From: Acidobacteriota bacterium | GTDB taxonomy: Bacteria > Acidobacteriota > Terriglobia > Terriglobales > Acidobacteriaceae | Direction of reading: 5' to 3' | Assembly: GCA_021793595.1 (NCBI GenBank) | Contig: JAJYSL010000021.1 | Location: 1 to 37,353 of the forward strand | DNA length: 37,353 nt | Part shown: positions 670 to 21,273 of the stretch, in pieces | How positions within the stretch are numbered: the first letter of the stretch is position 1 | Layout of the letters: each line of letters begins with the position of its first letter | The notes under the pieces: generated by a model | The model's database searches: none | What the model was told of the DNA's origin: nothing | What the model saw: the letters and a program-made list of their open reading frames with translations, nothing else | Program-made: the position numbers and the translations under genes

Positions 670-678
670 TCTTCTCTC

Positions 679-1998
679 CTAAAAAACCAGCCACAAAGCC
701 AGATACACGGTGTTGTTGTCGGAAGCGTTTCTCTGCGCGCCGTCGTAATTGCTGCTGGCTCCATTGAATTTGAAATAGCCTGAGTAATTGACGTCGATGT
801 CAATGTTTTGTACCGGCCAGTACCCAAACTGCGCAATGTAACCGCTGGTGTCGGGGTTACCGTTATTGCTGCCCGTAAGCGGCGCTGGTGCATACAGCAG
901 CGCGTCAGCGTTCCCTGTCGTGGAGAATAGCGCCCCAGTTGCGCTGTATTTATTGGCCCAGTGATAGGTACTGTCCAGTTTGAAAGTGTTCAGATGGTTG
1001 GACGCCGTACTTGCTCCGCCGGCAGCATATGTAGCGTCCAGATTCGAATTCTCATGAATATATGTTCCATGAATGTCCAACAGGTTAGGGCCGAAGGGCC
1101 GCTCATATTGAAAGTCGATCGAAGGGTCCAAATATGTGTCTTCCGGGCCAGACACTGCGTTGGGAAAGGACTTGACGTAGATCCCGTAGGTCCCAACTTC
1201 AAGGTAATTGCTGCCCCAGGTCTGTTGCCAAGCCGCTCTCCAATAGGGAGCGACTCCGGAAATATTGTATGATTGGCCGGTCCCGGTTACTGGCGTTGGT
1301 GCGCCAGCGTGCTCAGAGCGATACGCGGTAACATCCGCGTACAAATGGTTATCCCACATGCCGAAGCCACCCACTCCCGCCACATCCTGTCCAAGACTGC
1401 CGTTGATGATGGGGGAGGCGATTGGATCTACGCCGGAGGAGGTTGAGATCCACGGAAAACCCCAGGCGGGTGTGCTATTCCATAAATCTTCTACGGTGGG
1501 ATTGTTGTTGAGGTCAATGCCGTATTCCCAGTCTTTGCCGCCCAGCGTCCCCTGATTGGCGTAGCGCAGATCGGTGTTGTCCATGCTGAAGTGATCATCG
1601 GAATGTGTGTAGGTAAACTGGGCCATGCCGCCAAAGTGCGAGGCATAAGCACCCGCAAGAAAAATGCTCAATTGTTGCGGAAAGCCTGCGGAGTTATTCT
1701 GCGTGTCCGGCTGATTTGCTTGGAAGGACGTATTGGAGAGCAGTATCATGGCCGACAGCGGAATGTACTTGGAGAGAAGCAGGTCTCTCGAGTTCCCCAC
1801 TTTGTCCTTCGCTGTCATGTCTGTCAGCACATAGCCTCGCAGCTTGAAATTGCGTCCGAAGGCCGTCAGTTCCGGAGGGTTGCTGTGACACACGTTGCAT
1901 GAGAGCCCCGTTTGTCTTGCAAAACTTGGGACCGCATAGGCGCGATTCAAGCTCAAAAGAAGGGATACCACGACCGCCATTCGCATCAGTTTTTGCAT
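679..1998 (-). CDS. Cyc2-like monoheme c-type cytochrome fused to an outer-membrane beta-barrel
   Basis: The 439-residue protein has a signal peptide (1-22, ending AYA), then at once FARQTGLSCNVCH with one CxxCH heme site (C34, C37, H38), followed by LTAFGRNFKLRGY. The remaining ~370 residues are rich in Gly, Asn, Ser and aromatics in an alternating pattern and end in an aromatic strand with terminal Phe, typical of an outer-membrane beta-barrel. A short N-terminal monoheme domain fused to a porin is the plan of Cyc2, the outer-membrane iron-oxidising cytochrome of Acidithiobacillus and neutrophilic iron oxidisers, and the motif around the heme resembles that family (inference from memory). 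Nine bases separate it from the Rieske gene, suggesting electron exchange with the bc-type complex. The start at 1998 has an AAGGTGG site. Alternatively it is an uncharacterised cytochrome-porin with another extracellular partner. Confidence 0.75.
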   Translation of the reverse strand: MQKLMRMAVVVSLLLSLNRAYAVPSFARQTGLSCNVCHSNPPELTAFGRNFKLRGYVLTDMTAKDKVGNSRDLLLSKYIPLSAMILLSNTSFQANQPDTQNNSAGFPQQLSIFLAGAYASHFGGMAQFTYTHSDDHFSMDNTDLRYANQGTLGGKDWEYGIDLNNNPTVEDLWNSTPAWGFPWISTSSGVDPIASPIINGSLGQDVAGVGGFGMWDNHLYADVTAYRSEHAGAPTPVTGTGQSYNISGVAPYWRAAWQQTWGSNYLEVGTYGIYVKSFPNAVSGPEDTYLDPSIDFQYERPFGPNLLDIHGTYIHENSNLDATYAAGGASTASNHLNTFKLDSTYHWANKYSATGALFSTTGNADALLYAPAPLTGSNNGNPDTSGYIAQFGYWPVQNIDIDVNYSGYFKFNGASSNYDGAQRNASDNNTVYLALWLVF

Positions 1999-2024
1999 GG
2001 ACCACCTTGTTCACTAGAAATTAG

Positions 2025-2030
2025 ATTATA
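2025..2030 (-). promoter_or_regulatory. Candidate -10 box for the cytochrome-porin/Rieske/cytochrome b operon
   Basis: The minus strand reads TATAAT here, a perfect -10 hexamer, 26 bases upstream of the cytochrome-porin start codon. That would give a leader of roughly 20 bases containing the ribosome-binding site. No good -35 hexamer is found at 16-18 bases spacing, so the promoter may need an activator or may be a chance match. Confidence 0.4.
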
Positions 2031-2035
2031 GCGGC

Positions 2036-2921
2036 TAAGTACTTCCGCTCGCACGCATACGCATGTCAGACTGCCGTCGGGAGCGCCATCCAGCGTATCG
2101 ATCACTCCCATGCTTGTCGCGTCTGTCGGCTTCTTCAACCGGAGCGTCAGCAACAACCTTATGATCGCATCGAAGGTTGGACCGCAACTGTGATGGGCGT
2201 CACAAAAATTGCCAATGCGAACGGTCGCCAGGAACAGACTGAGCAGCGCGAAGCTGTGCTCCGCAGTATATTTCGGCCAACCAGAGTTGTCGGGCGCGGT
2301 TTCCTCCGCTCCTTTTGGATAAGCGCTATTTCGGAAAACGTTCCGAGACAAATTCCACCCCGCAAAGCTCTTCAACCTATTCGTTCGCGTGCGCTGATGG
2401 GCAGCGTCGTAGCTGAGAGCTCCGGAAATATACAACTGTCTTCTTTGATGCACAAATTTAGAAAGCGCTCAACAATGGCGTCACTCGGGCATTAGGGGGA
2501 GCGGATAGAAGATGGTCGTAACAGCTTCCGGAACTGCGTTTATGTATTGATTGGAGAGAGTCGTAAAGCGGATCTGTGGCAGATCACGCTGCAGAATGCG
2601 GACATGGCAGAGAATCTCCATGCTGGGATCGCTGCCTGATGTGCACTTGCTGCAGTTCGACACCACAGCGCCGCAGGCCGTTGTGTATCTGGAGAACAAT
2701 CTGGATTGCACCCAGTCTGCGATTGTCACTTCGTTGAATGGCCACTGCAACAGCAGGCTTACAGTGGTCGGGTCGCGAACCAAGACCGCGTACCAATTCA
2801 GTGCCGCTGCTGGTGCCAGTTTCGCGGGTGGCTCGAAAAACTTTCGATCTCCGTCAGTGGTTCCAGATCACGCGCGATAGAAATTCCGCCAACAAGAATA
2901 AAAGAAGTGATGTAATGGGCC
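2036..2921. other. Stretch without a recognisable gene
   Basis: This stretch of nearly 0.9 kb separates the divergent respiratory operon and the L,D-transpeptidase gene. Open frames of 68-155 codons exist on both strands, but none has a convincing ribosome-binding site, signal peptide, domain or consistent codon bias. The best candidate is a 100-codon minus-strand frame (2783-2481), which I could not assign to any family. The region could hold upstream control sequences for the flanking genes or a decayed gene. No tRNA-like fold or strong terminator was seen. Confidence 0.45.
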
Positions 2922-4631
2922 ATGCTCCCAGCATCCCGTCGGACCTACGTGCGGACGCTCGCTTTTTTGTTGTGTGTGGCAGCATCGTTTGGTGTTGTGA
3001 AGAGTCTTGAGCAACCGCAGCCGGCAGTCACCTCGCCCAGTGCTACACCGCTGTCGGTCCGCCTGCAGGAAATTGCTGCTTCTGGCAAACTTGCCGACTT
3101 GCACTGGCCCAACTTCTCTGACTATCGCGCAGATTTTCTGCAACTGTATCAGACGTCCAACTTTTCTCCACTTTGGCTGAGGGTCAACGGGCAGCCGACG
3201 CCGCAGGCACTTGCAATCATCCAGGCCCTGGAAAGCAGCCGGCAAAAAGGGTTGATCCCGGAAGACTACGATGCTGCGCGCTGGCAGGGTCGTCTTGCCG
3301 CGCTGAATACCACAGCAGACCCGGCAACCCAAGCCAATTTTGAAGCGGCGCTCACGGTGTGCACGCTGCGCTACATCTCTGACCTGCACATCGGCCGCCT
3401 CAATCCGAAACATTTCAGTTTCGATATCGAAATTCAGAACAAGAAATACAATCTGCCGCAATTTGTCACCCAAAATGTGATTCATGCCGCGAACGTGCAG
3501 GTCATCCTGAATGACGTGGAGCCTCCCTACGCCGGATACAGGCGAACAGAGGTCGCACTACAGCGATATCTGCAGCTCGCTGCGAAAGGCGATGGCCCGC
3601 TGCTTCCTGAAGTGGCAAAGACAGTAGCTCCGGGCGACACATACCCTGGAACCGCGCAACTTGCGCAGCGATTGGAACTGCTCGGCGACGTTTCTCCGAC
3701 CGCGTCAGTGAGCGCCGACTCCCATCTCTATACCGAGGTGTTGGTGGATGGAGTGAAGCTGTTTCAGGATCGTCATGGTCTGGTGGTGGACGGCAGGCTG
3801 GGCAAGCAGACCATACACGAACTGAACGTGCCATTGTCGTTTCGGGTACAGCAGTTGGATGCTGCTTTGGAGCGTTGGCGCTGGCTGCCGCCCTCTTTCC
3901 CGCAGCCGCCAATAGTTGTCAATGTGCCGGAATTCGTTCTGCGAGTATTTTCCGCGGATCACAAGGTCGCGTTGAAAATGAAGGTCGTAGTCGGAAAGGC
4001 TGTCCGACATCAGACCCCCGTGTTTGCGAAAGACATGAAGTACATTGTGTTTCGCCCTTACTGGAATGTTCCCAGGAGCATCGTGCGCAGCGAAATTGTT
4101 CCCGCGATCGTGAAAAACAGAAATTACATCGCGAAGAAGAATTTTGAAGTTGTCACCTACAGCGGCACGGTGGTGACAAGTGGGCCCATCACTGACGATG
4201 TACTCGCGCAATTACGCGCCGCAAAACTCACAGTACGGCAGAAGCCCGGTCCGGACAATGCTCTCGGGCTGGTGAAATTCCTGTTCCCGAATGAACACAG
4301 CGTGTATCTGCACGGCACACCGGCACAACAACTATTTTCGCAGTCTCGGCGGGACTTCAGTCACGGTTGTATTCGAGTGCAACAGCCAACGGAACTGGCT
4401 GCCTATCTGCTGCGCGATCAGCCGTCGTGGACGCCGGAGAAAGTGCGAGCCGCCATGGAGACTGGCCCGAACAATCGTCAGGTCGACTTGCAGGTGCCGA
4501 TTCCAGTGCTGATTCTCTATATCACCGCGGTTGTTGAAGAAGACGGCTCAGTGCATTTCTTCAATGATATCTACGGCCGGGACAGATCGCTGAAGGCATT
4601 GCTGGCAAAGGGTCCGCCTTACCCAGGTTAG
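2922..4631 (+). CDS. YcbB/LdtD-type L,D-transpeptidase with peptidoglycan-binding domain
   Basis: The 569-residue exported enzyme makes 3-3 (meso-DAP to meso-DAP) crosslinks in peptidoglycan. Layout: signal peptide or anchor (1-28), a scaffold domain (about 45-235), a PG_binding_1 domain (about 268-308, with VKLFQDRHGL and GRLGKQT), and a YkuD catalytic domain (about 328-497). The catalytic box SHGCIRV is intact (S480, H481, G482, C483, R485), as is the upstream HG pair (H464, G465). Long LDTs with this order are the YcbB/LdtD class. The ATG at 2922 has only a distant AAGAAG site, but the adjacent signal sequence supports it. It converges on the MepK-like gene with 5 bases between stops; ycbB and ycbK are also neighbours in E. 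coli (established). A carboxypeptidase-type YkuD is a less likely alternative. Confidence 0.93.
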   Translation: MLPASRRTYVRTLAFLLCVAASFGVVKSLEQPQPAVTSPSATPLSVRLQEIAASGKLADLHWPNFSDYRADFLQLYQTSNFSPLWLRVNGQPTPQALAIIQALESSRQKGLIPEDYDAARWQGRLAALNTTADPATQANFEAALTVCTLRYISDLHIGRLNPKHFSFDIEIQNKKYNLPQFVTQNVIHAANVQVILNDVEPPYAGYRRTEVALQRYLQLAAKGDGPLLPEVAKTVAPGDTYPGTAQLAQRLELLGDVSPTASVSADSHLYTEVLVDGVKLFQDRHGLVVDGRLGKQTIHELNVPLSFRVQQLDAALERWRWLPPSFPQPPIVVNVPEFVLRVFSADHKVALKMKVVVGKAVRHQTPVFAKDMKYIVFRPYWNVPRSIVRSEIVPAIVKNRNYIAKKNFEVVTYSGTVVTSGPITDDVLAQLRAAKLTVRQKPGPDNALGLVKFLFPNEHSVYLHGTPAQQLFSQSRRDFSHGCIRVQQPTELAAYLLRDQPSWTPEKVRAAMETGPNNRQVDLQVPIPVLILYITAVVEEDGSVHFFNDIYGRDRSLKALLAKGPPYPG

Positions 4632-7899: not shown

Positions 7900-10800
7900 T
7901 TATCGAGTCATGGCGTAATGCACTTCCTCTTCGATGGCAGCAATCTGCAGGGAAGGTTGATGCGCCCGTTGCAACGCCGCATTCACGTTCGCCAGGTCGC
8001 TCCCTTTGAAGTGCTGCCACGCCACAATCTGAGCGTTGGCTGCGCTCTTCATTTGATCGAAAATCACGATCGCCTGTGCTGGCGCCGGTCGGTCGCCGCT
8101 TTCCACGACTCGCAAAGCCACGCCGAGGCCCTTGTTCGCATCTGCCAATCCAGTCTGTTTCTTCGACCCCTTGGCGTTGTCATCCTCTCCATTTTTTATG
8201 GACTCCAACTTTGTCAGGGCGCTGCGTAGTTCTCGCTGCAGGTCCGCGGAATTGTTGCTTTTCGACTGCATCTTGTTCAGCTGAGTTTCAACACTCTCCA
8301 ATTCCGCCATTGCTTTGCGGCTGGCGAGTGTCTCACGATAGATCGATCCTGCAAGAGCGAATTGCTCATCAAGTACTTCCGTCGTAGCCCCACTGCGCGG
8401 GTCCATCACGACATGCACGGGCCGCTCCATCGAGGTTCCATCCACAGTGAGACGAAGGGTATAGGTGCCGGGAGGTACGCGAGGTCCGGGCGGAATGCTG
8501 GCAGCGTCGATATCGTCGCCCTCCACGTCCGTTCCTGAGCCGCTGGAAGAAAGATCCCAGACAAATCGATGTTCTCCGGGACTGGTCTTCAGGGTTTGCG
8601 GTACAGGAAACCATCGCTCGGCAATCGGTAGCAGCGGGCGCTTGACCTTCGGCATGTCGGCGCTGGAGAAGTGACGCAGGACGCGACCTTGCTCATCCAG
8701 AACCTGCAACGTGACATTGCTGGCAGTGCTGCCGAGGTAGTAATCAACGATGGCTCCATTGGGCGGATTCTTGGCTTGAGGTTCCTCCGGAGGCAGGGGT
8801 GTTCCCAGGAAAGCATCATTGTCCACGCGCACCGTTGTCGGCGGTGCATAAAGATATGGCTTGGTCGCGTTGACAGCGGCGGCCTGTCGCAGCGGAGCAA
8901 TGTCGTCCAGAATCCAGAAGGAACGGCCGTGGGTCGCGACGATCAAATCGCTGTCGTGGATCGTCATATCGCGCACGGAAGTCACCGGTAGATTCTGCTG
9001 CAGCGACTGCCAGTGATCGCCGGCATCAAAGGAAACATAGATGCCGAACTCCGTGCCGGCAAACAGTAGATTGCGCTGTTTTGGATCCTCGCGCACAGCG
9101 CGAAGAAAATGCGTCGGCGCGATTCCATCGACTGACAGCTTCCAACTTTTTCCATAATCGTGGGTGATGTAGAGATACGGCTTGCGATCTCCCAGGCGAT
9201 GCCGGTCGACCGCTGCATACGCCCTTGCGGGATCGAAATGCGAGGCTTCAATCAGCGAGAGTTTGCTCCACGGCGATAGATTCGGCGGGGTGACATCGCG
9301 CCAGGTTTTCCCGCCATCCGTCGTCAAATGAATCCGTCCGGTGTCGCTGCCAGCCCAGATTTCATCCGCCTTCAACGGCGATGGCGCAATAGTAAACACA
9401 ACTCCATACCCTCGTTGGTCGGCATTTTCTGCCGTCAATTTGCCCGCGTCACTCGCACCTTCCATCGCTCCGGTCAGATCGGGGCTGATCCGCTGCCAGT
9501 GCAGGCCGCCATCAACGGTTTTCATTACGTACTGCGTCCCCAAATAGAGCGAACGCTTGTCCGCAGTCGAAAAGACGAGCACCGGCGTCCACGGATCGCG
9601 GTACTTCCTCTTGTTCGCAGCCTTGTAGAAACCGCCGAGCGGCCATGGAGTGATGGTCTGGCCAAACGAGGTTCGACGGTCGAACCGCTCCACATCTCCG
9701 TAGGTGTCGCTGGCGTAGATGATATTTTCATCTTTCGGATCGATCGCGAGATAGCCGCTCTCACTGCCACCCGGCAAAAACCAGTCGCGCATATCGATGT
9801 GTCCATGGTCGCTGCGACTGGCGATGGCGATGGAGCCGCTGTCTTGCTGCGCGCCGTATACGTAGTAGGGAAACTTATCATCCGTAGTGACGTGGTACAT
9901 CTGTGCGGTCGGCTGGTTGTACCACGTGGTCCATGTCTTGCCGCGATCCAGGCTCACAGACGCGCCTTGATCGACACCCAGCATCAGGTCATCAGAATTG
10001 CTTGGATCAATCCAGACCTGGTGATAATCGTCGCCCCCCGGTGCGCCGCGCACAATCTCGATCGTCTTGCCGCCATCATTCGTCCGATAGAGTGCCACAT
10101 TGGGAATGTACAGAACGTTCGGGTCGCTCGGATCGATCGCAAGTGAACTGAAATACCAGGCGCGGCTGGTCAGGCGCGAATCGGCATTCACCAAACTCCA
10201 GTTATCACCGCCATCGTCCGACCGGTAGAGACCCGAGTGGCCGGGGCAAACGATGGTTGCATACACCCGGCTACCGTCCGCGCTTACCGCGATACCGGTT
10301 CGTCCCCAGGATCCAGCTGGCAAGCCGTGACCTGCAATTTGTGTCCATGTAGCGCCGCCGTCGGTCGTGCGATAGAGAGCATTTCCGGGACCCTCAACGG
10401 GGGGATAGGTGGTCCACGGAGGACGATGCGCATTCCACGTAGCCGCAAACAGTACATTTGGCTTGGCACGTGCCATGGCAATATCGGCAATGCCAACGTC
10501 GGGTCCCTTGTCGAGTACTCGATACCAGTGTTGACCAGCATCTATCGATTTGTAGACACCGCGCTCATCGCTCGACCCATAGGCATGGCCAAGAACGCCA
10601 ACGTACACCTTATCGGCGTCGCTGGGATCAACCAGGGTACGACTGATCTGCTGTGAGTCTGTGAGTCCAATGTGTTTCCATGTCGATCCTCCATCGTCGC
10701 TGCGGTAGACGCCATCGCCCGATGCAAGGTCGGAGCGAATGTCAGATTCGCCCGTGCCGGCATACATCACATTCGGGTCGGAGTCCGCCACTGCCAGCGA

Positions 10801-11106
10801 GCCGATTGAGGCGACGGGGGCCTTGTCAAAGACCGGTTGCCATACCGTCCCGGCATCGGTTGTTTTCCAAACACCGCCATCCACACCGCCAAAGAAGAAT
10901 TTTCGGTGACTTCCGGGGACGCCGCTCACGGCAACCACGCGACCGGCGCGAAACGGACCGATGAGTCTCCATTGCAACCCGCTGAAGAGGGCCGGGGGCA
11001 ACGACTGCGCCGCGACGAGCGGTGCGATGCTCAGCGCGGAGAGAAGTGCGGCAAAAGTAACAACCAACGCGGAAAAGAAGCGCGAGACAGAACTAGAGAT
11101 GTTCAT
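7900..11106 (-). CDS. Exported BNR/Asp-box (sortilin/Vps10-like) beta-propeller protein, copy A
   Basis: The 1068-residue protein has a signal peptide (to about residue 33, ending VAAQ). A long beta-propeller region follows, with around eleven Asp boxes of the SxDxGxTW type (for example RSDDGGSTW, RTTDGGATW, KTVDGGLHW, TTDGGKTW). After it come the segment LIVATHGRSFWILDD, a beta-sandwich-like region (PGTYTLRLTVDG), and a helical tail. Such proteins are often labelled glycosyl hydrolase or sortilin-like, but I see no catalytic residue set, so binding, scaffolding or an unknown hydrolysis are open. It is a clear paralogue of the divergent gene at 11360 and has the same length. The ATG at 11106 follows a GAGGAG site and is preferred to the overlapping GTG at 11109. 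Confidence 0.88.
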   Translation of the reverse strand: MNISSSVSRFFSALVVTFAALLSALSIAPLVAAQSLPPALFSGLQWRLIGPFRAGRVVAVSGVPGSHRKFFFGGVDGGVWKTTDAGTVWQPVFDKAPVASIGSLAVADSDPNVMYAGTGESDIRSDLASGDGVYRSDDGGSTWKHIGLTDSQQISRTLVDPSDADKVYVGVLGHAYGSSDERGVYKSIDAGQHWYRVLDKGPDVGIADIAMARAKPNVLFAATWNAHRPPWTTYPPVEGPGNALYRTTDGGATWTQIAGHGLPAGSWGRTGIAVSADGSRVYATIVCPGHSGLYRSDDGGDNWSLVNADSRLTSRAWYFSSLAIDPSDPNVLYIPNVALYRTNDGGKTIEIVRGAPGGDDYHQVWIDPSNSDDLMLGVDQGASVSLDRGKTWTTWYNQPTAQMYHVTTDDKFPYYVYGAQQDSGSIAIASRSDHGHIDMRDWFLPGGSESGYLAIDPKDENIIYASDTYGDVERFDRRTSFGQTITPWPLGGFYKAANKRKYRDPWTPVLVFSTADKRSLYLGTQYVMKTVDGGLHWQRISPDLTGAMEGASDAGKLTAENADQRGYGVVFTIAPSPLKADEIWAGSDTGRIHLTTDGGKTWRDVTPPNLSPWSKLSLIEASHFDPARAYAAVDRHRLGDRKPYLYITHDYGKSWKLSVDGIAPTHFLRAVREDPKQRNLLFAGTEFGIYVSFDAGDHWQSLQQNLPVTSVRDMTIHDSDLIVATHGRSFWILDDIAPLRQAAAVNATKPYLYAPPTTVRVDNDAFLGTPLPPEEPQAKNPPNGAIVDYYLGSTASNVTLQVLDEQGRVLRHFSSADMPKVKRPLLPIAERWFPVPQTLKTSPGEHRFVWDLSSSGSGTDVEGDDIDAASIPPGPRVPPGTYTLRLTVDGTSMERPVHVVMDPRSGATTEVLDEQFALAGSIYRETLASRKAMAELESVETQLNKMQSKSNNSADLQRELRSALTKLESIKNGEDDNAKGSKKQTGLADANKGLGVALRVVESGDRPAPAQAIVIFDQMKSAANAQIVAWQHFKGSDLANVNAALQRAHQPSLQIAAIEEEVHYAMTR

Positions 11107-11359
11107 CACTCCTCAGATTGTGACGGTCACACGGCCACACGATCAAGCGGGAATGAAAATATACATCCAAAATCGAAATGGATGGCCGAAAATCTGACGT
11201 GGCTGCAACGGGGAAGCGTAGGATCGGCTATTCTGACTCATTGAAAGCTAGCCGCGTGGTATTTCGGCGCGAACGAAGTTCGGCCTGGTTTTGGACGTCC
11301 TCAGGAATTCCGAAGTTTGCAGTTCCCGCCGAGCTTTAGGCGACACTGAAGGGATGGAG
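11107..11359. promoter_or_regulatory. Divergent control region between the two BNR-protein genes
   Basis: About 250 bases separate the start codons of the two paralogues, so both promoters must lie here unless transcription enters from elsewhere. On the minus strand a TATATT hexamer (11163-11158) lies about 50 bases upstream of copy A. On the plus strand I found only a TTGAAA (around 11237-11242) without a matching -10. No operator repeat was identified. Confidence 0.35.
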
Positions 11360-14300
11360 ATGACGCAAAGACATTCTGCCTCTCGCTTTTTGTTGGCCAT
11401 CTTGTTATTGGCCGGCTCGTTGGTTCCCAGCACTGCTTGTTTGGCCGCGAAGCACGATAGCTCCATGCCGGATATGCATTGGCGCATGATCGGCCCATTT
11501 CGCGGAGGTCGCACACGCGCTGCCGTGGGTGTCCCGGATCAGCCGAATGTTTTCTACGTGGGACAGGTCGATGGCGGCGTTTGGAAGTCGACAGATTATG
11601 GACGCACCTGGAATCCTATTTTCGACGGACAGGATACGCAGTCGATCGGCGCGATCGCGGTGGCGCCCTCCGACAGCAATGTGGTGTACGTGGCCAGCGG
11701 CGAGGGACTCCATCGGCCCGACCTCTCTGTGGGAGATGGTATCTATCGGTCCGCCGATGCTGGAAAAACATGGGCGCATCTTGGTTTGCGCGACGGCCAA
11801 CAGATTCCCGCGATTGCCGTCGATCCCACAAACGCAAATCGGATGTTTGCGGCGGTGCTCGGACATCCTTACGGACCCAACGCGGAGCGTGGAATCTTCC
11901 GTTCGACCGATGGCGGCAAGACTTGGGAGAAAGTCTTGTATAAGGATGAAAATACCGGCGGGTCTGACGTCGTGATCGATCCAAAGAATCCGCAGATTGT
12001 GTATGCGTCACTGTGGGATGATCGGCTGGGTCCATGGGAGGATGACAACGAATACGCCACCACGAATGGCGGACTTTTCAAGTCGACCGATGGTGGAAGC
12101 ACCTGGAAGCAACTGACAAACGGTCTGCCGAAGGATCTGGTGCAGATTAACGTGGCGATTGCAGCGAGCAATCCGCAGCGCTTGTACGCGACTTTATCGA
12201 CCACGAAAGAAGGCAGCGGCTACGCCACTGATAAAGGGCTTGGCGTGTACCGCTCTGACGACGGCGGGATGAGCTGGCGGAAGATCACAGACGATCCTCG
12301 TCCGGCCATGAAGATTGGTGGCGGCGATCTGCCTGTTCCTGCGGTCGATCCGCAAAATCCTGACGTCGTGTATAGCACCAGCATTGTCACCGTCCGTTCA
12401 GAAGATGGCGGCAAAACCTGGATCAGTCTGCGTGGAGCGCCGGGTGGCGATGATTATCAGAACATGTGGATCAACCCGCGCGATCCAAAAATAATATTGC
12501 TGGTCAGCGATCAGGGCGCGCTTGTCAGCGTGAATGGCGGCGACAGCTGGAGCTCCTGGTACAACCAGCCCACTGCGCAGCTCTACCATGTTGCAGCGAC
12601 GAATAGTTTTCCTTACCAGGTGTGCGCTGGGCAGCAGGAGAGCGGTTCTGTCTGCACATTAACGCGCGGCAACGATGGCGAAATCACCTTCCGCGACTGG
12701 CATCCTGCAGGGATCATCGAGTACGGATACGCCGCCCCCGATCCGCTGCATCCCCACATCGTCTATGGCGCGGGGCGAACGGAAGTTTCGCGATACGACA
12801 TGGTGACCGGGCAGGTACAGAATGTCACTCCTTTACCGACGCATAAGAACGGATTTCGCGCTGACCGAACCGAGCCGATTGAATTTTCTCCAGTCGATCC
12901 GCACACCCTGTACTATGCCGCGAATCATTTATTTGTGACCACAGATGGGGGGCAGACGTGGCGAACTGTTAGTCCGGACCTGAGCCGGGAAAAGACGGGA
13001 GTGCTCCCTACCATCCCAACCCTGACAACGAAGCAGCAGGATGAACGTCGCGGCGTGATCTATTCGATCGCGGCTTCGTACAAAACGACGCAGACCATTT
13101 GGGCCGGAACTGACGACGGCCTGGTCTGGATTACGCGCGACGCGGGCGCGAACTGGAAGAACATCACCCCGCCGGGCGTTGCACCGTGGAGCAAGATTGC
13201 GCAGATCGACGCGTCGCGTTTCGATGATGACTCCGCCTACGTTGCCGTGAATCGCTTTCGAGTGGATGACTTGCATCCGTACGCGTACCGCACGCACGAC
13301 GGCGGAAAAACCTGGGTTTCCATTAGCGCGGGTCTTCCTGATGACGCGCCGGTGAATGCAGTTCGAGCTGATCCCGTGCAGCCAGGACTGTTGTATGCGG
13401 CAACGGAGAAATCCGTATGGGTTTCATTCGATGATGGCGACCATTGGCGTCCATTGGAATACAACCTGCCGCATACTTCCATGCGGGATCTGCTGGTGAA
13501 GGATGATGATCTGATTGTCGCGACCCATGGCCGTTCGTTCTGGATCCTCGACGACGTAAGCCCGCTGCGCCAACTCGCAGCCCATGCAGGCAAAATCGAT
13601 GCGCTGCTGTTGCCGCCGGCTCCGGCATGGCGTGTACGTCGTGACACCAATACAGATACGCCTTTGCCCGCGGATGAACCGGCCGGCGAGAACCCGCCCG
13701 ACGGCGCAATTCTCGACTACAACCTGCCGCATGCTGCCCGTGCGGTGACTCTCGAAATTTTAGATCGTAGCGGGAATGTCCTGCGCAAATACGGCGGCGA
13801 CGATCCTGTGGTTCCAACGCCGGAGGAGTTGCGCGCGGAATTGATTCCGGCATATTGGCCGAAGATGCACGGGCCCTTGCCAACCGCTGCGGGAATGCAT
13901 CGCTGGGTGTGGGATCTTCGCGCCACCGCTCCCACCGCGATCAACTACTCCTATCCCATTGCAGCGGTGCCGCACCGCACCCCGCTGGTACCACAAGGAC
14001 CGCTTGTTGTGCCGGGGACGTATACCGTGCGTTTGACCGTCGATGGCAAAAGCGAGACACAGCCCGTACGAGTAAAGATGGATCCGCGCGTCCACATGTC
14101 GCAAGCAGAGTTGGAGGCTTTGCACACGGCTCAGGTAGCGATGGCCGCTTCACTCAGCGAGCTCGCCAAAGCCGATTTGCAGGCACACTCGGTGATGGAG
14201 CAGGCCGCGGCGATGCCGGATCCTGCGCTTGCAAAACAACTCGCAACATCGAATGCCACGTTGAAGACAATCCTCGAAGGTACGGGACTGAATGCGGCGA

Positions 14301-14566
14301 AGCACTTGCCGGGCATCGATGAAGTGACCGCGGAAGCTACACTCCTATACGGCGAGTTGGAACAAGCGGATGCAAATCCGACGGCTGCCATGCTGGTCGC
14401 TGTGGCGCACGTGCAGACTGAAGGGAAGGAAGTGCTTCCACGGTGGGAGCAGTTTAAGCAGACGCAACTGCCGCAGATGAATCAGCAGATCAGGAATGCT
14501 CATCATCCCGTCATCGATCCTGAGCGCAAGCCCACCAACATGCCGCAAGCAGGAGATGAGGACTGA
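11360..14566 (+). CDS. Exported BNR/Asp-box (sortilin/Vps10-like) beta-propeller protein, copy B
   Basis: This 1068-residue paralogue of the divergent gene shares the same plan: a signal peptide (ending near CLAAK), an N-terminal WRMIGPFRGGRT segment matching WRLIGPFRAGRV in copy A, about eleven Asp boxes (KSTDYGRTW, RSTDGGKTW, RSEDGGKTW, THDGGKTW and others), the conserved LIVATHGRSFWILDD segment, a beta-sandwich (PGTYTVRLTVDG) and a helical C-terminus. The frame is open from 11291, with an ATG at 11354 that has a GAAGGG directly abutting it. The ATG at 11360 gives a better six-base spacing and a standard signal peptide, so I chose it. Known members are exported and occur in multiple copies in Acidobacteriota and Bacteroidota (recollection); biochemical function is not established. 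Confidence 0.88.
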   Translation: MTQRHSASRFLLAILLLAGSLVPSTACLAAKHDSSMPDMHWRMIGPFRGGRTRAAVGVPDQPNVFYVGQVDGGVWKSTDYGRTWNPIFDGQDTQSIGAIAVAPSDSNVVYVASGEGLHRPDLSVGDGIYRSADAGKTWAHLGLRDGQQIPAIAVDPTNANRMFAAVLGHPYGPNAERGIFRSTDGGKTWEKVLYKDENTGGSDVVIDPKNPQIVYASLWDDRLGPWEDDNEYATTNGGLFKSTDGGSTWKQLTNGLPKDLVQINVAIAASNPQRLYATLSTTKEGSGYATDKGLGVYRSDDGGMSWRKITDDPRPAMKIGGGDLPVPAVDPQNPDVVYSTSIVTVRSEDGGKTWISLRGAPGGDDYQNMWINPRDPKIILLVSDQGALVSVNGGDSWSSWYNQPTAQLYHVAATNSFPYQVCAGQQESGSVCTLTRGNDGEITFRDWHPAGIIEYGYAAPDPLHPHIVYGAGRTEVSRYDMVTGQVQNVTPLPTHKNGFRADRTEPIEFSPVDPHTLYYAANHLFVTTDGGQTWRTVSPDLSREKTGVLPTIPTLTTKQQDERRGVIYSIAASYKTTQTIWAGTDDGLVWITRDAGANWKNITPPGVAPWSKIAQIDASRFDDDSAYVAVNRFRVDDLHPYAYRTHDGGKTWVSISAGLPDDAPVNAVRADPVQPGLLYAATEKSVWVSFDDGDHWRPLEYNLPHTSMRDLLVKDDDLIVATHGRSFWILDDVSPLRQLAAHAGKIDALLLPPAPAWRVRRDTNTDTPLPADEPAGENPPDGAILDYNLPHAARAVTLEILDRSGNVLRKYGGDDPVVPTPEELRAELIPAYWPKMHGPLPTAAGMHRWVWDLRATAPTAINYSYPIAAVPHRTPLVPQGPLVVPGTYTVRLTVDGKSETQPVRVKMDPRVHMSQAELEALHTAQVAMAASLSELAKADLQAHSVMEQAAAMPDPALAKQLATSNATLKTILEGTGLNAAKHLPGIDEVTAEATLLYGELEQADANPTAAMLVAVAHVQTEGKEVLPRWEQFKQTQLPQMNQQIRNAHHPVIDPERKPTNMPQAGDED

Positions 14567-15020: not shown

Positions 15021-16655
15021 TTAGCGAATGCCGACGGCGTGTACGTAATGCATCCAGTTTTGCGGAAACCATCCCGGTTGCTGCGGTTGGTTCTGATGGG
15101 CGGCAATTTCGCATTCCATGTGCACTGGATTTGGAATGGGAGACGCGAACATGAAGTCGAGCCAATCGCTGTCGCCGTTGACGCCATTGCTGCGTCTCGA
15201 CTCGCGAACTTTCGTCAGCCACTGATCGATCAGCATGCCTTCCAGCTTCTTTTCCATTTCCTGCTGCGCAGAGAGCACCTTGGTCATGGCAGAAGCCGGC
15301 GCCATTTCTCCTGTCAGAAACTGGAATGACAGGAGAGAAGGCAGCGCAAAGGTTCGCTGCAAAAGCAGGTCGCGCGCGGCATCGATCAGCGTACGGTCCA
15401 CCTTCGCCGTTTCAATGCTATCCGTCGGAATCGCCGTCTCCACTTCAGGAGCCGGCAAAGCATCCTGCAGCAACTCTGGATAACGAAGCGGCTGGATATC
15501 CTCCAGAATTCGTTCCAGCGCTGCCGCAAAGACAGGATGATGCGGTAGCTCCTGCTTTGCCTTTGACGATCCGCTCAGCGCTAGATGCATCTGCTCCGCG
15601 GGTGCAGCCGCGGGCTTGAACAGCAGATAACAGGCGGCAGCCGAAACAGTCATCAGCAGAACGCTAAGGCCGGAGTATGCCGGCTTTGGTTTGCCATTCA
15701 GCGTCGTGCCACCGGGCGCCAGCAATCCAAGCCGCTTGGGCTTGGCCGTTTCTCGTTTCAAATATTTCAGGCAGTCCAGCCAACTCTCCACGTTCGGACT
15801 GTGCGAGGCCAGCGCGTCCAACAATTCAGGAACATAGTCGCGGACATAGCGTCCCACTAATTCCAATCCTTCTGGCGAGAATGGATCCAGATCCGCCTGG
15901 CTGTCGAAGTCGGGGATTTTTTCGCGCACAAGATTCGCGAGTGTGGGAGCGCTGAGCGGCTGGCCGGTAAAACATTGCGCAATCAGTTCCCGCGCGGCCA
16001 GAAACAACGCGCACTTTCCCGCTTCAGAGTGTCCCTTCAACCGGTACGCTTCAATGCCAATGGCCCAGCCGCTTCGGTTCTGAGCGATCTCCGAGATCAT
16101 CGGCAAAGACGCTTCTGTATCCGACTTAAGCAACAGAACCGTCAACCGTTCAAGGATTGCGGAAGTATCTTCGGGGTCCAGATTGCTGCCACGCCAGAAG
16201 GGAAGCACGTGGAACAGCGTGACCGATTCATTGCCGCCAAAATCCGCGAAGAGTTTTTGCTGGCTCTCTTGCAGGTTCTCAATCTGCTGCTGTTCCAACA
16301 GCACGACCCAGAAGATGCGGTTCAAAAACGGCGTGGCCTCCAACGAGACTTCCAACTGACGTCGCGCAGTACGAATCCAATCCTGATCCTCCGACAGGCA
16401 CACGATCAGCGTGCGAAATTCCTGAAGCCGGTAATTCTTCGGCACGTAACCGCCGCGAATCAATTCCGAAAGCAGCTTCGCGGAGCGCAACTCGTGGACG
16501 GCGATAGGAATGGTGTGCTGCATCTCTTCCGCTTCGTTGATGTGCGCAAAGTAGAAGGCACGGCGTTCCTCTTCGCTGATCCAGCGGACGACCTGTTCTT
16601 TCAGTTGCTCTGCTCCGGATCCGCAGAGCAAGACTAATGTAGGCTGTAGGATCAA
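15021..16655 (-). CDS. Unrecognised single-span membrane protein, third gene of the vWA/tubulin-like operon
   Basis: I do not recognise a family. From the chosen start it has 544 residues: a cytoplasmic-looking N-terminal part opening with a hydrophobic strand and loop (LILQPTLVLLCGSG) as in a Rossmann-like fold, a helical middle, a basic stretch (KRETAKPKR), one membrane span (about 329-346), and a C-terminal domain of roughly 195 residues. Positive charges before the span place the N-terminus inside and the C-terminus outside. The frame is open to a TTG at 16691, but a second TTG at 16655 follows a GGAG site by six bases. It begins one base after the tubulin-like gene's stop (TAA-A-TTG), implying coupled translation, so I prefer 16655. 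Context suggests a membrane receptor or anchor for the tubulin-like protein. Confidence 0.82.
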   Translation of the reverse strand: MILQPTLVLLCGSGAEQLKEQVVRWISEEERRAFYFAHINEAEEMQHTIPIAVHELRSAKLLSELIRGGYVPKNYRLQEFRTLIVCLSEDQDWIRTARRQLEVSLEATPFLNRIFWVVLLEQQQIENLQESQQKLFADFGGNESVTLFHVLPFWRGSNLDPEDTSAILERLTVLLLKSDTEASLPMISEIAQNRSGWAIGIEAYRLKGHSEAGKCALFLAARELIAQCFTGQPLSAPTLANLVREKIPDFDSQADLDPFSPEGLELVGRYVRDYVPELLDALASHSPNVESWLDCLKYLKRETAKPKRLGLLAPGGTTLNGKPKPAYSGLSVLLMTVSAAACYLLFKPAAAPAEQMHLALSGSSKAKQELPHHPVFAAALERILEDIQPLRYPELLQDALPAPEVETAIPTDSIETAKVDRTLIDAARDLLLQRTFALPSLLSFQFLTGEMAPASAMTKVLSAQQEMEKKLEGMLIDQWLTKVRESRRSNGVNGDSDWLDFMFASPIPNPVHMECEIAAHQNQPQQPGWFPQNWMHYVHAVGIR

Positions 16656-16656
16656 T

Positions 16657-19314
16657 TTATTCTCCAGCCCGCATAAATTGCGGAACGCCAAGCGATCGAA
16701 GATAGGACATCATTTCCACGCGCACCTCGGATAACTGCCGTTCATACTCGCCAAGATCGTGATATTCGTTGCGCGGGTAAAAACGCTCTACCTGGTCGTG
16801 AATGAATTGCGCCCATCCTTGATTGCCTCCCAGTTCCAAAATCATCTTGTCGCGTTTTCTCTCGATGATTTCCTGAAAGTCGGGATCGACCATTCGCATG
16901 CGTGCGTGCAGGTGACGCTCCACGGGATCGGCAATCTGCGTCCGCAACGGCTTCCCATTGAATTCCAGATCTTGCCCAAAGTCGCGCAATAGGCCAAGAA
17001 TGGTCGCTAGCCCAAACCACTTGCACTGCTCCTCGGTTTCGTCATCCCCAGCAATGCTGCGGCGCTTGTGGGTTGGCAGGTCGAGAAACATCTTTTCTAC
17101 CGGATCTTTGCGCTTGGCTTCATAGGCTTGCCGCATCAACTGGACTTCATGAATGTCGGCTAGTCCAAACCGCCCGATAACACGCATAAAGGACAGCACG
17201 GAGTCATCCACGGAATCGCTGATGTTGCAGAGCGGCGAGGATTCTGATCCTTTCCACTGGTCGAACACCTGTTGCAATTGTTTGCGCAGTTCCGGATCGC
17301 GCGGCGCAAAAAGATTGTTGGTCGTGGCCTGATGCCGGCGCGGACCATTCTGCAGGTTCAGGTTCGACCAGGCCTGCATCATGCCGTTATGCAGCAGCCC
17401 CTCATCCAGCAATTGCGAGCGGGTAATTTGCTCCGAGACGTACTGCGATGTCTCCTGATAAAGCTTGTCGATATAGTTGTCACCCTGAAACTTCCAGGCA
17501 TCATCCACCACATCCTGAAGCGAAAATTTCGCGCGATACCGCTGCAGCAATCCCACTCGATCAAGTTGGTATTGGTCCTGCGGGATGTTGGCTGTACCGA
17601 TGCCAGTGTTCGAAAAGTTCAACGTGCGCGACGTGGCACGGCGGTTGGAAAGAAACTGCTCCGCTTTTCCTTGCAATTCCTTCGCAATAAACTCCCCATT
17701 GGCGATCAGGCCTCCCAGGGCGGCAGCTTCGTCGCTGAAGCGCGCGCGCAGCTTGCCCACCAGGGAACGTACCTGGCCGCGAAGTTCGCCGGCAATTTGT
17801 GATTGCGCCGCCTGCGGCAACTCTTCGCGGAAGCCTGCCATGCGTTCACTGGCCGACTTGCCGCCAAGGAACCTCTCTTCGCGGTAGGTCTTCAAGACTT
17901 CAGCTTCCGTCAGCGGGGCGGGAACCACCGCAACTGTCTCGAGAACCTGTTGCAACTGGATCAAAACCGTCTTGCAGATCTCGAACTGGCTGGCCAGCAC
18001 GCCTCGGTCGAGCGCTGTCTGCCGCTTGCGTTCCCCCAGAATCTCCCGTTCGATGGTGTCGACAATGGATGTGATTTCTGCCGTCGCCTGCTGCACCACG
18101 CGCGGGCGGATGTTCATCCAGATTTCATATTCCTTTGTGATGTTGTCGGTTGTCTGTCGCTGACCGCCGCCTTCGCCGTGGAGGAATACCTCCGTATGCA
18201 TCAGGCTTTCAATCTGGCGCAGAGCTGACAGTGATTCAAGATTGCGCAGCTCAGAAATCCGGGTGCCGCTCAGCACATCTTTGGCGCGCGCATCAAATCC
18301 CGATTGAATCGGCGCGAAGATATCTCCCAGCAATTCACGGCCGATATGCAGCACGTATTTCTCTACATAGCGTGCTTTCGGTAGCGGTATAGAGAACGAT
18401 CCAAAGGATGCGTAACTGAGGCGCGCATTGGTGACGTGGTAATCGACAATGTGTTCCTGAATCTGCGGAATTGCGACCGCCGAAAAAAGGAACTCCGCCG
18501 TCCGCTGATACAGATCCTCGGACGAAGACAGCTGCCTGCCAATTTCATCTGTCCCGCCGAGCATGAAACACATGTCGAACGGGCTGGGGCAAATGGGAAT
18601 TTCTCCCGATACCTGGTCTGCCGGGGAGGCAAGTGTCGTTTGCGAGAATGAATCGGCCATGTAGTAGTTCAGTTCCTGCAAGGCTGCGTATCCATTGGCT
18701 TCAAGGGTCGCGTATTGCGCGCTCTGGCCGAGCTGCCGAAATGTTGACGGCAGAAATAACATGCCGAACCGAACCGTCTCATAATTGTGTCGGGTAAACA
18801 GATGGTTCACCAGAAAAGCGATGTCCAAAAACATGCCGGTTCCGGTGCCGCCGCATACGGAACTGATGATGAAAACGCGGGTCTGCGCTCCGTCCACAAC
18901 ATTGGCAAACTCGCCGCTGACTTCCGCGTGGTTCAGCGTGTGCATCGCTCGTTCAATATGCGCCGCAATATCCTGGCCGCGCCAGAAATATGCAACGTGG
19001 CCCACCAGCCTCCGCATACCCGCGCCAGTGGCGACGGAAAACGCAGGCAGATCGTCGGGCAGCCAGCGAAACTGATTCCGCTTGCGAAACTGCATCACGT
19101 TAGCCGAGGTGATAACCGGATTCCCGAGATGGAGGAACTCGTGATTCTCAAGGAACGGATCGGAGCTGTCAGTTCGCTGGTTAGTGGTGTCGATCCCCAG
19201 GATCTGAATGTACTTCTGTTCCTTGTCGTAATACTTGCCGTAGTGAGTCTTGAACTTTCGCAGCAAGTCTATTCCGGTTCCACCAAGGCCAATGAGCAAT
19301 GTACGGTGAAGCAT
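16657..19314 (-). CDS. Tubulin/FtsZ-like GTPase-fold protein (Tubulin_2 type), large
   Basis: The 885-residue protein opens with a nucleotide-binding strand-loop LIGLGGTG (7-14), has IDTT (41-44) where tubulins have their T2 region, and carries SSVCGGTGTGMFLDIA (151-166), an almost complete tubulin signature (GGGTGSG in tubulin/FtsZ). These fit the Tubulin_2 ('tubulin-like') family. The protein is far longer than FtsZ (about 390 residues): after a GTPase-like half comes a helical half (from about 380) without a recognised domain. No signal peptide or membrane span is seen, so it should be cytoplasmic. Its start has an AGAAGG site, 15 bases after the stop of the vWA gene. Whether it polymerises or hydrolyses GTP is unknown. 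It is not the cell-division FtsZ, since no FtsZ tail or division genes are nearby. Confidence 0.85.
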   Translation of the reverse strand: MLHRTLLIGLGGTGIDLLRKFKTHYGKYYDKEQKYIQILGIDTTNQRTDSSDPFLENHEFLHLGNPVITSANVMQFRKRNQFRWLPDDLPAFSVATGAGMRRLVGHVAYFWRGQDIAAHIERAMHTLNHAEVSGEFANVVDGAQTRVFIISSVCGGTGTGMFLDIAFLVNHLFTRHNYETVRFGMLFLPSTFRQLGQSAQYATLEANGYAALQELNYYMADSFSQTTLASPADQVSGEIPICPSPFDMCFMLGGTDEIGRQLSSSEDLYQRTAEFLFSAVAIPQIQEHIVDYHVTNARLSYASFGSFSIPLPKARYVEKYVLHIGRELLGDIFAPIQSGFDARAKDVLSGTRISELRNLESLSALRQIESLMHTEVFLHGEGGGQRQTTDNITKEYEIWMNIRPRVVQQATAEITSIVDTIEREILGERKRQTALDRGVLASQFEICKTVLIQLQQVLETVAVVPAPLTEAEVLKTYREERFLGGKSASERMAGFREELPQAAQSQIAGELRGQVRSLVGKLRARFSDEAAALGGLIANGEFIAKELQGKAEQFLSNRRATSRTLNFSNTGIGTANIPQDQYQLDRVGLLQRYRAKFSLQDVVDDAWKFQGDNYIDKLYQETSQYVSEQITRSQLLDEGLLHNGMMQAWSNLNLQNGPRRHQATTNNLFAPRDPELRKQLQQVFDQWKGSESSPLCNISDSVDDSVLSFMRVIGRFGLADIHEVQLMRQAYEAKRKDPVEKMFLDLPTHKRRSIAGDDETEEQCKWFGLATILGLLRDFGQDLEFNGKPLRTQIADPVERHLHARMRMVDPDFQEIIERKRDKMILELGGNQGWAQFIHDQVERFYPRNEYHDLGEYERQLSEVRVEMMSYLRSLGVPQFMRAGE

Positions 19315-19329
19315 GGGGCACCTTCTGTT

Positions 19330-21273
19330 CTAGCTGTAGAGCACGTTGATCTGTATGGTCCCGTCTTCCGTAGCAAAGACTGGAACGTGGATGGACCGTA
19401 GGTCGATCTCTGCCGACTTGTGGACTTGGGGCGCAGGGGCATGGGCTGCGCGTGGACGAGCCACGATCGTCCACCTGCCACGCCTGCGCGTACTTTGTAG
19501 TGAGAGCAATTCTCGCGATTGCGGGCCGGCAATCACAGCACAGCTGGGTCCGGCACTATTGCCGACCTGCCCTTCGGAAACATGCAGTGTGCGCGTGCGC
19601 AACTGAGCTGGCAGCCGCAACCGTAAAACCTGCGTGCCATTCTGTCGCACAATCAAATCGGCCTGCAACGGACGCGGCCAGAAGTTCCACACGGCGGCGC
19701 CCACTGCGCACAGGAACAACAGTATCGCCGCCGCCCACGGCCATTTATTTCGAACCAACTCGCCAACCGTCATCTGCCGCGTAACAACTCGCAACGCACC
19801 GCGACGTGTGACTTCTGTCTTGCCGTCATTCCACGTGGCCGTGTAGTCGATCACATGCACCTGCTCCAGATCGCCTTCCAGCATCATTTTGAATTTCGAA
19901 CTTTGTCCCGCTGAAACTTGCAGGTTGTCCGGCATACGATCCGATGGACCATCCGCCGAGGCTTGAGGTCTGAACCGAAGCTTCACCGCACCTACGGGCA
20001 ACAGGGATTGAATCGTGAGCTTCTTCTGAAACCAATCCCGCGGCAAGGGATCGAAGACCCCCACCGACACCTGCTGCGGAATCGCAACCGGCATCACAAC
20101 CGCTGTCAGGTCGCCAAGGTAGGTTTCCACCTCGCCATACGGAGAATCCAAATATGCTCGCGCACGGAACGCCCCGGCACTTCGAGCCTGCAATTCGCCC
20201 GCGAATCGGCTGGGATCCACCTGCTGACTCAGCGGCACAATTTCATTGTCGCGCCCGATCAGTTCCAGGTGGGCGTTCGCACTTTGCAAAAAGAACGCGC
20301 TCTTTACCGGGCCATGAGAGCTTGTCAGGGACAAAGTGATCGGGCGGGGAGCATCGGTCAACAACGCCGAAGGGAATTCGCCATCCGCAGACAATCGCAG
20401 CGGCTCCTGAACGCACAGAAATGCGAGCCCATGACCGGACCAAGAAAGCTTTGTGTCTCCGGCGGCCGCGTCTTCCTCAGCCACGGCCACGTGTGGGGAG
20501 CGATACAGTATCTGCCCCCGCAACTGAAGAGAATTCGCATCCTCGCCGGTAAACACGACAACAACTCGGTTGGGCTTTCCTGTCCACGTCAGATTTTGCG
20601 CAGAAGAACTGCGAACGTACACTGGCAGCGCTGCGGTGCGTGCTGCGACCCGGAGAAATGCTTCGGGGAGATCGGACGCCGACGCAGCCTGAATGGAAAA
20701 TCCACTGGATGTGCGTGCCAGGCGATCAAGAAAGTCCAGGTCAAGATCGTTCCCCAGGCCAATGGTGTAGACCTTCAGCCGCCAGGCATTCTCCGCCGCG
20801 ATCGATAAAGCTTGCGAACGATCCTCATCGGCAAGGCGATTGGCCGGGTCGCTGCGACCATCCGTCAGCAGGACCAGGGAAATGTCGTTATCCTGAAAGA
20901 ACGAGGCAGGCTGCCCAACCAGATAATCTTCCACCGAGCGTAGAACCGGCGCGAAGGAAGTGTGGGCGTCTGAAGACCTAATCTTGTCCAGCAGGGAAAA
21001 ATCGAATCGGCTGCGCTCAATTGGCTTCTGCAGCCAACGAGCACTGTCGCCAAACACGATCACGCCAACCTGGTCGTTTGGATTTTCTGTGGCGGCCAAC
21101 AACCCCGCGGCTTCCACTCGGAGCCGTGCAGGATCGCTTCGCAGCATGCTGCCAGATTGGTCGAGTGCAAGCAGGATGGTCCGTTGCTTTTGCGTAGCCC
21201 AGGCAGTGGGCACAAGCAAGAACGGCATCAAAACAAGCGCGACAAAAAATAACTCGATCGTACGGCTTCGCAT
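19330..21273 (-). CDS. Exported, membrane-anchored von Willebrand factor A-domain protein
   Basis: The 647-residue protein has a signal peptide (1-26, ending AWA), then a vWA domain (about 32-215) with a complete metal-ion-dependent adhesion site: DQSGS (D38, S40, S42), T105 in HTSF, and D138 in LLTDGRSD. A beta-rich middle follows (about 215-500), then one membrane span (about 511-531). Last is a basic ~115-residue C-terminal domain (RTRTLHVSEG, STRRRGRW), perhaps a small beta domain. Signal peptide plus late span put the vWA part in the periplasm and the tail in the cytoplasm, where it could meet the tubulin-like protein encoded 15 bases downstream. vWA domains bind protein ligands through a metal ion (established); the ligand here is unknown. 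First gene of the operon; no clear ribosome-binding site precedes the ATG at 21273. Confidence 0.88.
   Translation of the reverse strand: MRSRTIELFFVALVLMPFLLVPTAWATQKQRTILLALDQSGSMLRSDPARLRVEAAGLLAATENPNDQVGVIVFGDSARWLQKPIERSRFDFSLLDKIRSSDAHTSFAPVLRSVEDYLVGQPASFFQDNDISLVLLTDGRSDPANRLADEDRSQALSIAAENAWRLKVYTIGLGNDLDLDFLDRLARTSSGFSIQAASASDLPEAFLRVAARTAALPVYVRSSSAQNLTWTGKPNRVVVVFTGEDANSLQLRGQILYRSPHVAVAEEDAAAGDTKLSWSGHGLAFLCVQEPLRLSADGEFPSALLTDAPRPITLSLTSSHGPVKSAFFLQSANAHLELIGRDNEIVPLSQQVDPSRFAGELQARSAGAFRARAYLDSPYGEVETYLGDLTAVVMPVAIPQQVSVGVFDPLPRDWFQKKLTIQSLLPVGAVKLRFRPQASADGPSDRMPDNLQVSAGQSSKFKMMLEGDLEQVHVIDYTATWNDGKTEVTRRGALRVVTRQMTVGELVRNKWPWAAAILLFLCAVGAAVWNFWPRPLQADLIVRQNGTQVLRLRLPAQLRTRTLHVSEGQVGNSAGPSCAVIAGPQSRELLSLQSTRRRGRWTIVARPRAAHAPAPQVHKSAEIDLRSIHVPVFATEDGTIQINVLYS

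Follow-up and report, generated by a model that had tools for sequence, protein, structure and literature searches.

A vWA protein, a Tubulin_2 GTPase and a candidate eroded tubulin paralogue form a conserved operon that may act as a trans-envelope switch

The window analysed here is a 37,353-nucleotide stretch of Acidobacteriota DNA (assembly GCA_021793595.1, contig JAJYSL010000021.1, positions 1 to 37,353). Its named close relatives come from Acidobacteriaceae metagenome-assembled genomes, so the window reads as DNA from that family. On its minus strand lies a tight operon that encodes a vWA protein, an 885-residue Tubulin_2 (FtsZl1-type) protein and a 544-residue membrane protein, called the third protein below. 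We tentatively propose, with a little less than even confidence, that these proteins constitute an outside-in trans-envelope switch comprising a vWA receptor, a tubulin GTPase and an eroded membrane partner. What underlies this proposal is observed or predicted: the operon and its conservation, topology from hydropathy, selection, the predicted tubulin fold with its loops, and the erosion of third genes in several lineages. The features referred to throughout are as follows.

15021..16655, minus strand: third protein, 544 residues, TTG start, one membrane span; proposed eroded tubulin paralogue (pseudo-GTPase)
15618..15674, minus strand: membrane span of the third protein, residues 328-346 (hydropathy; conserved stretch in the family alignment)
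16086..16655, minus strand: predicted N-terminal alternating alpha/beta domain of the third protein, residues 1-190 (low-confidence model; Rossmann-like matches)
16657..19314, minus strand: Tubulin_2 (FtsZl1-type) protein, 885 residues
17095..17349, minus strand: predicted C-terminal tubulin-like domain, residues ~656-740 (model and CetZ alignment; boundaries approximate)
17350..18297, minus strand: predicted, mostly helical insertion of ~300 residues in the tubulin fold, residues ~340-655 (model secondary structure and CetZ alignment; boundaries approximate)
18835..18852, minus strand: T4 nucleotide loop GGTGTG, residues 155-160 (G155-T159 do not vary among 19 rows and G160 hardly varies)
19273..19290, minus strand: T1 nucleotide loop GLGGTG, residues 9-14 (G11, G12, T13 and G14 invariant in 19 rows)
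19330..21273, minus strand: vWA protein, 647 residues, with signal/anchor, periplasmic vWA domain, one C-terminal span and a cytoplasmic tail of ~115 residues (open reading frame, Pfam, hydropathy, substitution rates)
19681..19737, minus strand: C-terminal membrane span of the vWA protein, residues 513-531 (hydropathy; same place in loci L003 and L005)
21148..21162, minus strand: metal-ion-dependent adhesion site (MIDAS) motif DQSGS, residues 38-42

All three open reading frames (ORFs) are intact and are separated by gaps of 15 and 1 bases, which bears out a preliminary description of this DNA as holding a tight minus-strand three-gene operon; a longer ORF form of the third gene starts at 16691. 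The order vWA, Tubulin_2, third gene is kept in all six related genome-contig loci that were found (L001-L006), although in L001 and L004 the vWA gene is cut by the contig start and was assigned by its identity to the window vWA gene. Recurrence of the three genes together in other genomes, which had been set beforehand as a test, was thereby found. Ratios of non-synonymous to synonymous substitution rates (dN/dS), computed for the pairs window-L003, window-L005, L003-L002 and L005-L006, are 0.08-0.20 for the vWA gene (the fastest-changing of the trio), 0.02-0.05 for the Tubulin_2 gene (the slowest) and 0.04-0.06 for the third gene; silent sites are close to saturation in the window-L005 pair. 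The genes are real and closely spaced, purifying selection acts on all three and, because dN/dS is low and gene order is kept in 6/6 loci, the trio is not a product of chance. Its distribution is patchy. The third gene is present in 7 of 200 genomes from the family of G001 (once as a fragment and once split over two frames), and among 399 genomes from the class of G001 a close Tubulin_2 relative occurs in two and any match in nine.

The arrangement extends well beyond these close relatives. In 24 of 36 acidobacterial Tubulin_2 loci, a vWA match (E < 0.01) lies among the three nearest same-strand upstream genes, and 13 of those 24 also have a large third-type gene directly after the tubulin gene (L060, L062, L065, L068, L069, L076, L104, L107, L114-L117 and L120). 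These counts are lower bounds because several loci are cut by contig ends. L108 was kept outside the 13, its upstream vWA match being weak (E 0.0018) and its downstream gene (10745-13903) seeming to encode a single protein in which a vWA domain is combined with a tubulin-like stretch. L058, whose Tubulin_2 ORF is masked by a longer opposite-strand ORF, was dropped and with it the adjacent pair in G289:C21, as were L112 and L113, whose large downstream gene was judged from its first residues alone not to be third-type. L057 and L109 have a tubulin and a third gene with no vWA gene detected, but the L057 tubulin lies near a contig start and the L109 upstream protein shares the vWA-protein layout, though Pfam does not call vWA in it. 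Outside the Acidobacteriota, the complete trio is found on three Thermaceae plasmids, where the tubulin and third genes are 2 or 3 bases apart. When the trio label, borne by 19 rows with the window among them, is mapped onto a tree of 41 Tubulin_2 N-domains, 6 changes suffice, compared with a mean of 12.9 after label shuffling and with none of 500 shuffles as low; several branches of this tree are long and its details are uncertain, and L058, L061, L063, L071, L074, L105, L106, L108 and L110 were left out of it.

The 885-residue protein scores 153.8 bits with Pfam Tubulin_2 (PF13809) against a curated cut-off of 27, and its predicted structure did not lack the tubulin nucleotide loops, so the earlier assignment as a Tubulin_2-type GTPase with both glycine motifs stands. 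Aligned to CetZ, the predicted structure spans residues 2..739 with 311 residues aligned. CetZ, FtsZ and BtubAB-type chains are among the 50 matches listed, at 8-14% identity over aligned residues. By sequence, solved structures gave only a chance-level match. On the strength of the model, the tubulin fold of the 885-residue protein is complete and includes both glycine motifs; the match to CetZ, FtsZ and BtubAB covers the whole fold, but the window protein is predicted to carry ~300 extra, mostly helical residues.

The vWA protein exceeds the Pfam cut-offs for both VWA_2 (34.5 bits) and VWA (29.0 bits), has the DQSGS motif from residue 38 and shows hydrophobic stretches beginning at residues 6 and 513, in agreement with its previous description as exported with an intact metal site. 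The trans-envelope topology claimed for it also recurs. Specifically, among 17 upstream proteins from trio loci outside the window clade (that of L109 included), hydropathy places a last span followed by a tail of 97-182 residues in 16, the exception being L060. The D-x-S-x-S motif is found in 15 of the 17; it is missing in L114 and L120, and in L109 it lies at residue 201. No sequence common to the vWA tails of different lineages was detected. An FHA-like fold was suspected in some of these tails, but Pfam gave no support for it.

The third protein has no significant Pfam match, and searches with the single sequence and with the family alignment returned the same 38 relatives. Thus far the label 'unrecognised' in the preliminary description holds, but an unrelated protein it probably is not. 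T1 and T4 motifs are absent in 27 of 27 window-family rows. Across loci, a search of the first 420 residues found T4 kept in none of 19 third genes and a T1-like motif only in that of L060; by comparison, of 18 tubulins from these loci, 16 fit the T1 pattern and 16 the T4 pattern. A hydrophobic span is conserved in the window third family, with none in the four Thermaceae proteins or in L062, L065, L069 and L104.

A profile of Tubulin_2 N-domains from which all third genes were kept out and the near-identical L001-L006 dropped nevertheless finds six third genes: L057 (3.5e-20), L107 (2.3e-17), L060 (8.9e-9), L109 (5.2e-7), L076 (4.5e-6) and L116 (1.7e-5). The L057 gene exceeds Pfam's own Tubulin_2 cut-off, and in L107 the gene that follows the third gene also scores 1.5e-4. 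When 12 third-gene families were compared with this profile by profile-profile alignment, P values were 6e-17 (L057), 7e-14 (L060), 2.5e-13 (L109), 1.8e-6 (L065 and L104), 1.6e-5 (L068, L116 and L117), 5.6e-4 (L076), 5.8e-4 (window third family), 0.002 (L114, L115 and L120), 0.013 (Thermaceae), 0.02 (L069), 0.13 (L062) and 0.16 (first 400 residues of L107); the L114-L115-L120 and Thermaceae families both align T1 on T1. The controls were single sequences, namely 293 ORFs left from 395 after 81 matching Tubulin_2 or third genes and a further 21 duplicates were excluded. Only one control fell at or under 0.002, and this was the L108 gene adjoining a Tubulin_2 gene; the next best reached 0.0025. 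Column shuffles of the window third-family alignment gave a lowest value of 0.0072, with none of 40 as low as 5.8e-4. The window alignment extends over ~60 residues and places the strand RTLIV on the strand leading into the tubulin T4 loop.

Judged from these sequence comparisons, third genes as a class are very probably eroded tubulin paralogues, and the window protein is probably one as well, albeit with appreciably less assurance. Several results weigh against that assignment. The AlphaFold model of the third protein is too poor (predicted local distance difference test score, pLDDT, 46) to settle the matter and Foldseek found nothing useful with it; VIA-align gave generic Rossmann-like matches, with no FtsZ or tubulin chain among the 50 matches listed, which in itself proves nothing. 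Furthermore, a full-family profile comparison between the window third protein and Tubulin_2 was negative, the window third family shows no direct relation to other third-gene clusters in profile comparison, and no relative below 67% identity was found. The aligned stretch being short and the full-length comparison negative, the profile relation of the window protein is modest; this graded profile evidence, together with the negative comparison, the missing cross-family link and the poor model, sets how firmly the two assignments are worded. These same points would fit an independent Rossmann-like adaptor unrelated to tubulin, in which case the module would be a vWA-FtsZl1 pair with a lineage-specific partner. 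We regard this as a serious but lesser possibility, given that neither the other 292 controls nor any column shuffle attained the window P value, that RTLIV aligns onto the strand preceding the T4 loop, and that other lineages have clearly tubulin-like genes in this place of the operon.

If the proposed switch exists, the vWA protein would serve as its receptor, with the metal-site domain outside the inner membrane and one span leading to a short cytoplasmic tail. This tail may dock the cytoplasmic tubulin-family GTPase, which is predicted to bear a long inserted helical arm. The third protein would be a membrane-anchored relative of the GTPase that has lost its nucleotide loops and, being inert, could tether or cap the active tubulin. 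An outside ligand or stress would then shift the assembly state of the GTPase, possibly through polymerisation, and so evoke a downstream response. The loss of nucleotide loops from the third protein is what suggests a GTPase/pseudo-GTPase pair. The fuller picture, in which a tubulin heteropair of active GTPase and membrane-bound pseudo-GTPase is wired to a metal-dependent vWA receptor and serves as an infection sensor before BrxL in hot-spring bacteria, is offered more speculatively. Such a pair, if real, bears on the origin of heterodimeric tubulins.

The pairing of tubulin and vWA genes is already known, a correction to the preliminary description, which knew of no characterised function for such a trio; publications of 2010 and 2020 describe systems of this kind. 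FtsZl1 (Tubulin_2, PF13809) proteins, found in many bacteria and some archaea, were reported in operons with vWA proteins (Makarova & Koonin 2010, PMC2875224), and these operons share with the window the GTPase family, a vWA partner with intact metal site and membrane-associated neighbours. That study detected no tubulin-like C-terminal domain, whereas the model here shows a full fold with a helical insertion; most of its other partners were unrecognised, whereas we propose that the third gene is an eroded paralogue, and families in its additional files, beyond the main article, may include window-type third genes. As presented in the relevant section of Kaur et al. 2020 (PMC7159879), tubulin-centred GAP1-N2 systems of Firmicutes and Actinobacteria, with a predicted role in biological conflict, likewise join tubulin-domain proteins to membrane vWA proteins, and Firmicutes versions have two tubulin genes. 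However, these systems centre on GTPase, GAP1 and FNIII proteins, and that section does not mention an inactive second tubulin. Pfam found no linked zinc-ribbon GTPase or FNIII protein among 20 ORFs flanking the window trio, and a word search of the main text of PMC7159879 gave no Acidobacteria, Thermus, BREX or Zorya. Word searches of PMC12839542 (a BREX survey) and PMC10907252 returned neither tubulin nor FtsZ. Passages in PMC9871819 describe a tree rooted with Tubulin_2 proteins, and in PMC4858521 some type IV pilus loci of archaea are said to include an FtsZ-like gene. A literature search covering titles and abstract beginnings found no work dealing with erosion of the third gene or with a link to BrxL, and by titles no experiment on FtsZl1/Tubulin_2 proteins was found. 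The trio could make this little-studied bacterial tubulin family testable.

Membrane remodelling was proposed for FtsZl1 in 2010 (PMC2875224), and a tubulin-like polymer that bends the inner membrane or makes vesicles, anchored by the vWA and third proteins, would accord with the predicted tubulin fold and with two partners that hydropathy places in the membrane. Yet a scan of 20 flanking ORFs revealed no recognisable remodelling partner, a recurrent exported metal-site protein better suits sensing, and one reviewer, whose comments are printed with that paper, considered the data insufficient for a decision and suggested transport or signalling instead; we consider this explanation improbable for the trio. 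The full fold with its helical insertion, the partner resembling a dead copy and the recurrent receptor layout turn a vague remodelling idea into one that can be addressed at the bench.

A dedicated anti-phage module in every lineage, the window clade included, in which envelope sensing at infection triggers a tubulin-based block or effector, is likewise rather unlikely, although part of the genomic context favours it. Among Thermaceae, T. oshimai and M. taiwanensis have brxL directly behind their trio, Allomeiothermus has it there after one insertion sequence (IS) element, and in T. thermophilus pTthSNM3-3b it comes after the surviving third gene. HmaA, HmaB and HmaC (1675, 1582 and 1155 bits) lie beside one Thermaceae trio, and others are adjoined by DrmD- and DrmMI-like proteins and by DruE- and DpdF-like helicases (DISARM-like and Druantia-like). 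Among acidobacterial trios, L062 lies next to a gene for a ZacC-like helicase (892 bits) and to another that is weakly ZorB-like (33 bits), and L065 has a PDC-S01-type ATPase nearby (303 bits). The patchy presence in 7/200 family genomes points the same way. Around the window trio, however, the 20 scanned ORFs are housekeeping-like or unrecognised and include no defence-like Pfam family, the operon holds no effector, and its three proteins have no PADLOC match; flank proteins tested at L069, L107, L114, L116 and L117 have none either. PADLOC coverage leaves out the flanks of L068, L076, L104, L109, L115, L120 and the window.

A plain defence label for the window was set aside on the Pfam scan of these 20 flanking ORFs. 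As defence genes adjoin Thermaceae and some acidobacterial trios while the window flanks are housekeeping-like or unrecognised, defence use is likely in some lineages, a conclusion that does not extend to the window. Of the functions the preliminary description left open, defence thus gains support from context in Thermaceae and one or two acidobacterial loci and none from the window neighbourhood. Where the module stands among anti-phage genes, that is, in Thermaceae and some Acidobacteriota, the input to the proposed switch is for this reason probably an envelope event during infection. With trio and brxL linked, Thermaceae offer a system in which a defence role can be checked directly.

In Zorya, the ZorA/ZorB channel is an envelope-spanning sensor that passes an infection signal inward. 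The proposed switch resembles it as a putative envelope-spanning infection sensor, and at L062 weakly ZorB-like and weakly MotA/ExbB-like genes adjoin the trio; however, no MotA/OmpA pair occurs among the window ORFs scanned, and the transmitter would be a tubulin. The L062 genes, weakly MotA/ExbB-like (sub-threshold, 17.4 bits) and OmpA/ZorB-like, occupy 11701-14090 after its vWA-tubulin-third trio. Deinococcus plasmids (L079, L080 and L087) carry Tubulin_2 with an OmpA gene, and in L079 a gene annotated as MotA/TolQ/ExbB, whose PADLOC score is ZorA-like, is also present.

HerA/TraG-like ATPases occur at L060 and at the vWA-tubulin locus L072, and in L075 (2247-4559) the gene immediately upstream of a vWA-Tubulin_2 pair encodes a reverse transcriptase-Cas1 (RT-Cas1) fusion. 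On T. thermophilus pTthSNM3-3b (L086, 12023-16070), the front of the tubulin gene is lost beside a transposase while the third gene and brxL are still open; type I-C CRISPR genes lie near this remnant. The L070 operon (382-3576) encodes, besides Tubulin_2, an HSP70/MreB-like domain protein, so that actin-like and tubulin-like folds stand side by side. In L120, L114 and L115, the third gene is followed by one for a protein of 390-410 residues that has four to five hydrophobic stretches. The viral contigs searched held no relative; the sole match in a phage record is a Tubulin_2 stretch at 7168-7950 of L082, an unannotated faecal record named 'Bacteriophage sp.' that may be a bacterial contig.

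An aldo/keto reductase gene is the common upstream neighbour of the trio in the window, L002, L003 and L005, and downstream neighbours are common only within the pairs window-L002, L001-L003 and L005-L006. In the window, a divergent pair of large Sortilin/BNR-repeat genes adjoins the trio at 7900-11109 (minus strand) and 11291-14566 (plus strand), and a relative of the former's product, 81% identical to it, lies near the L002 trio.

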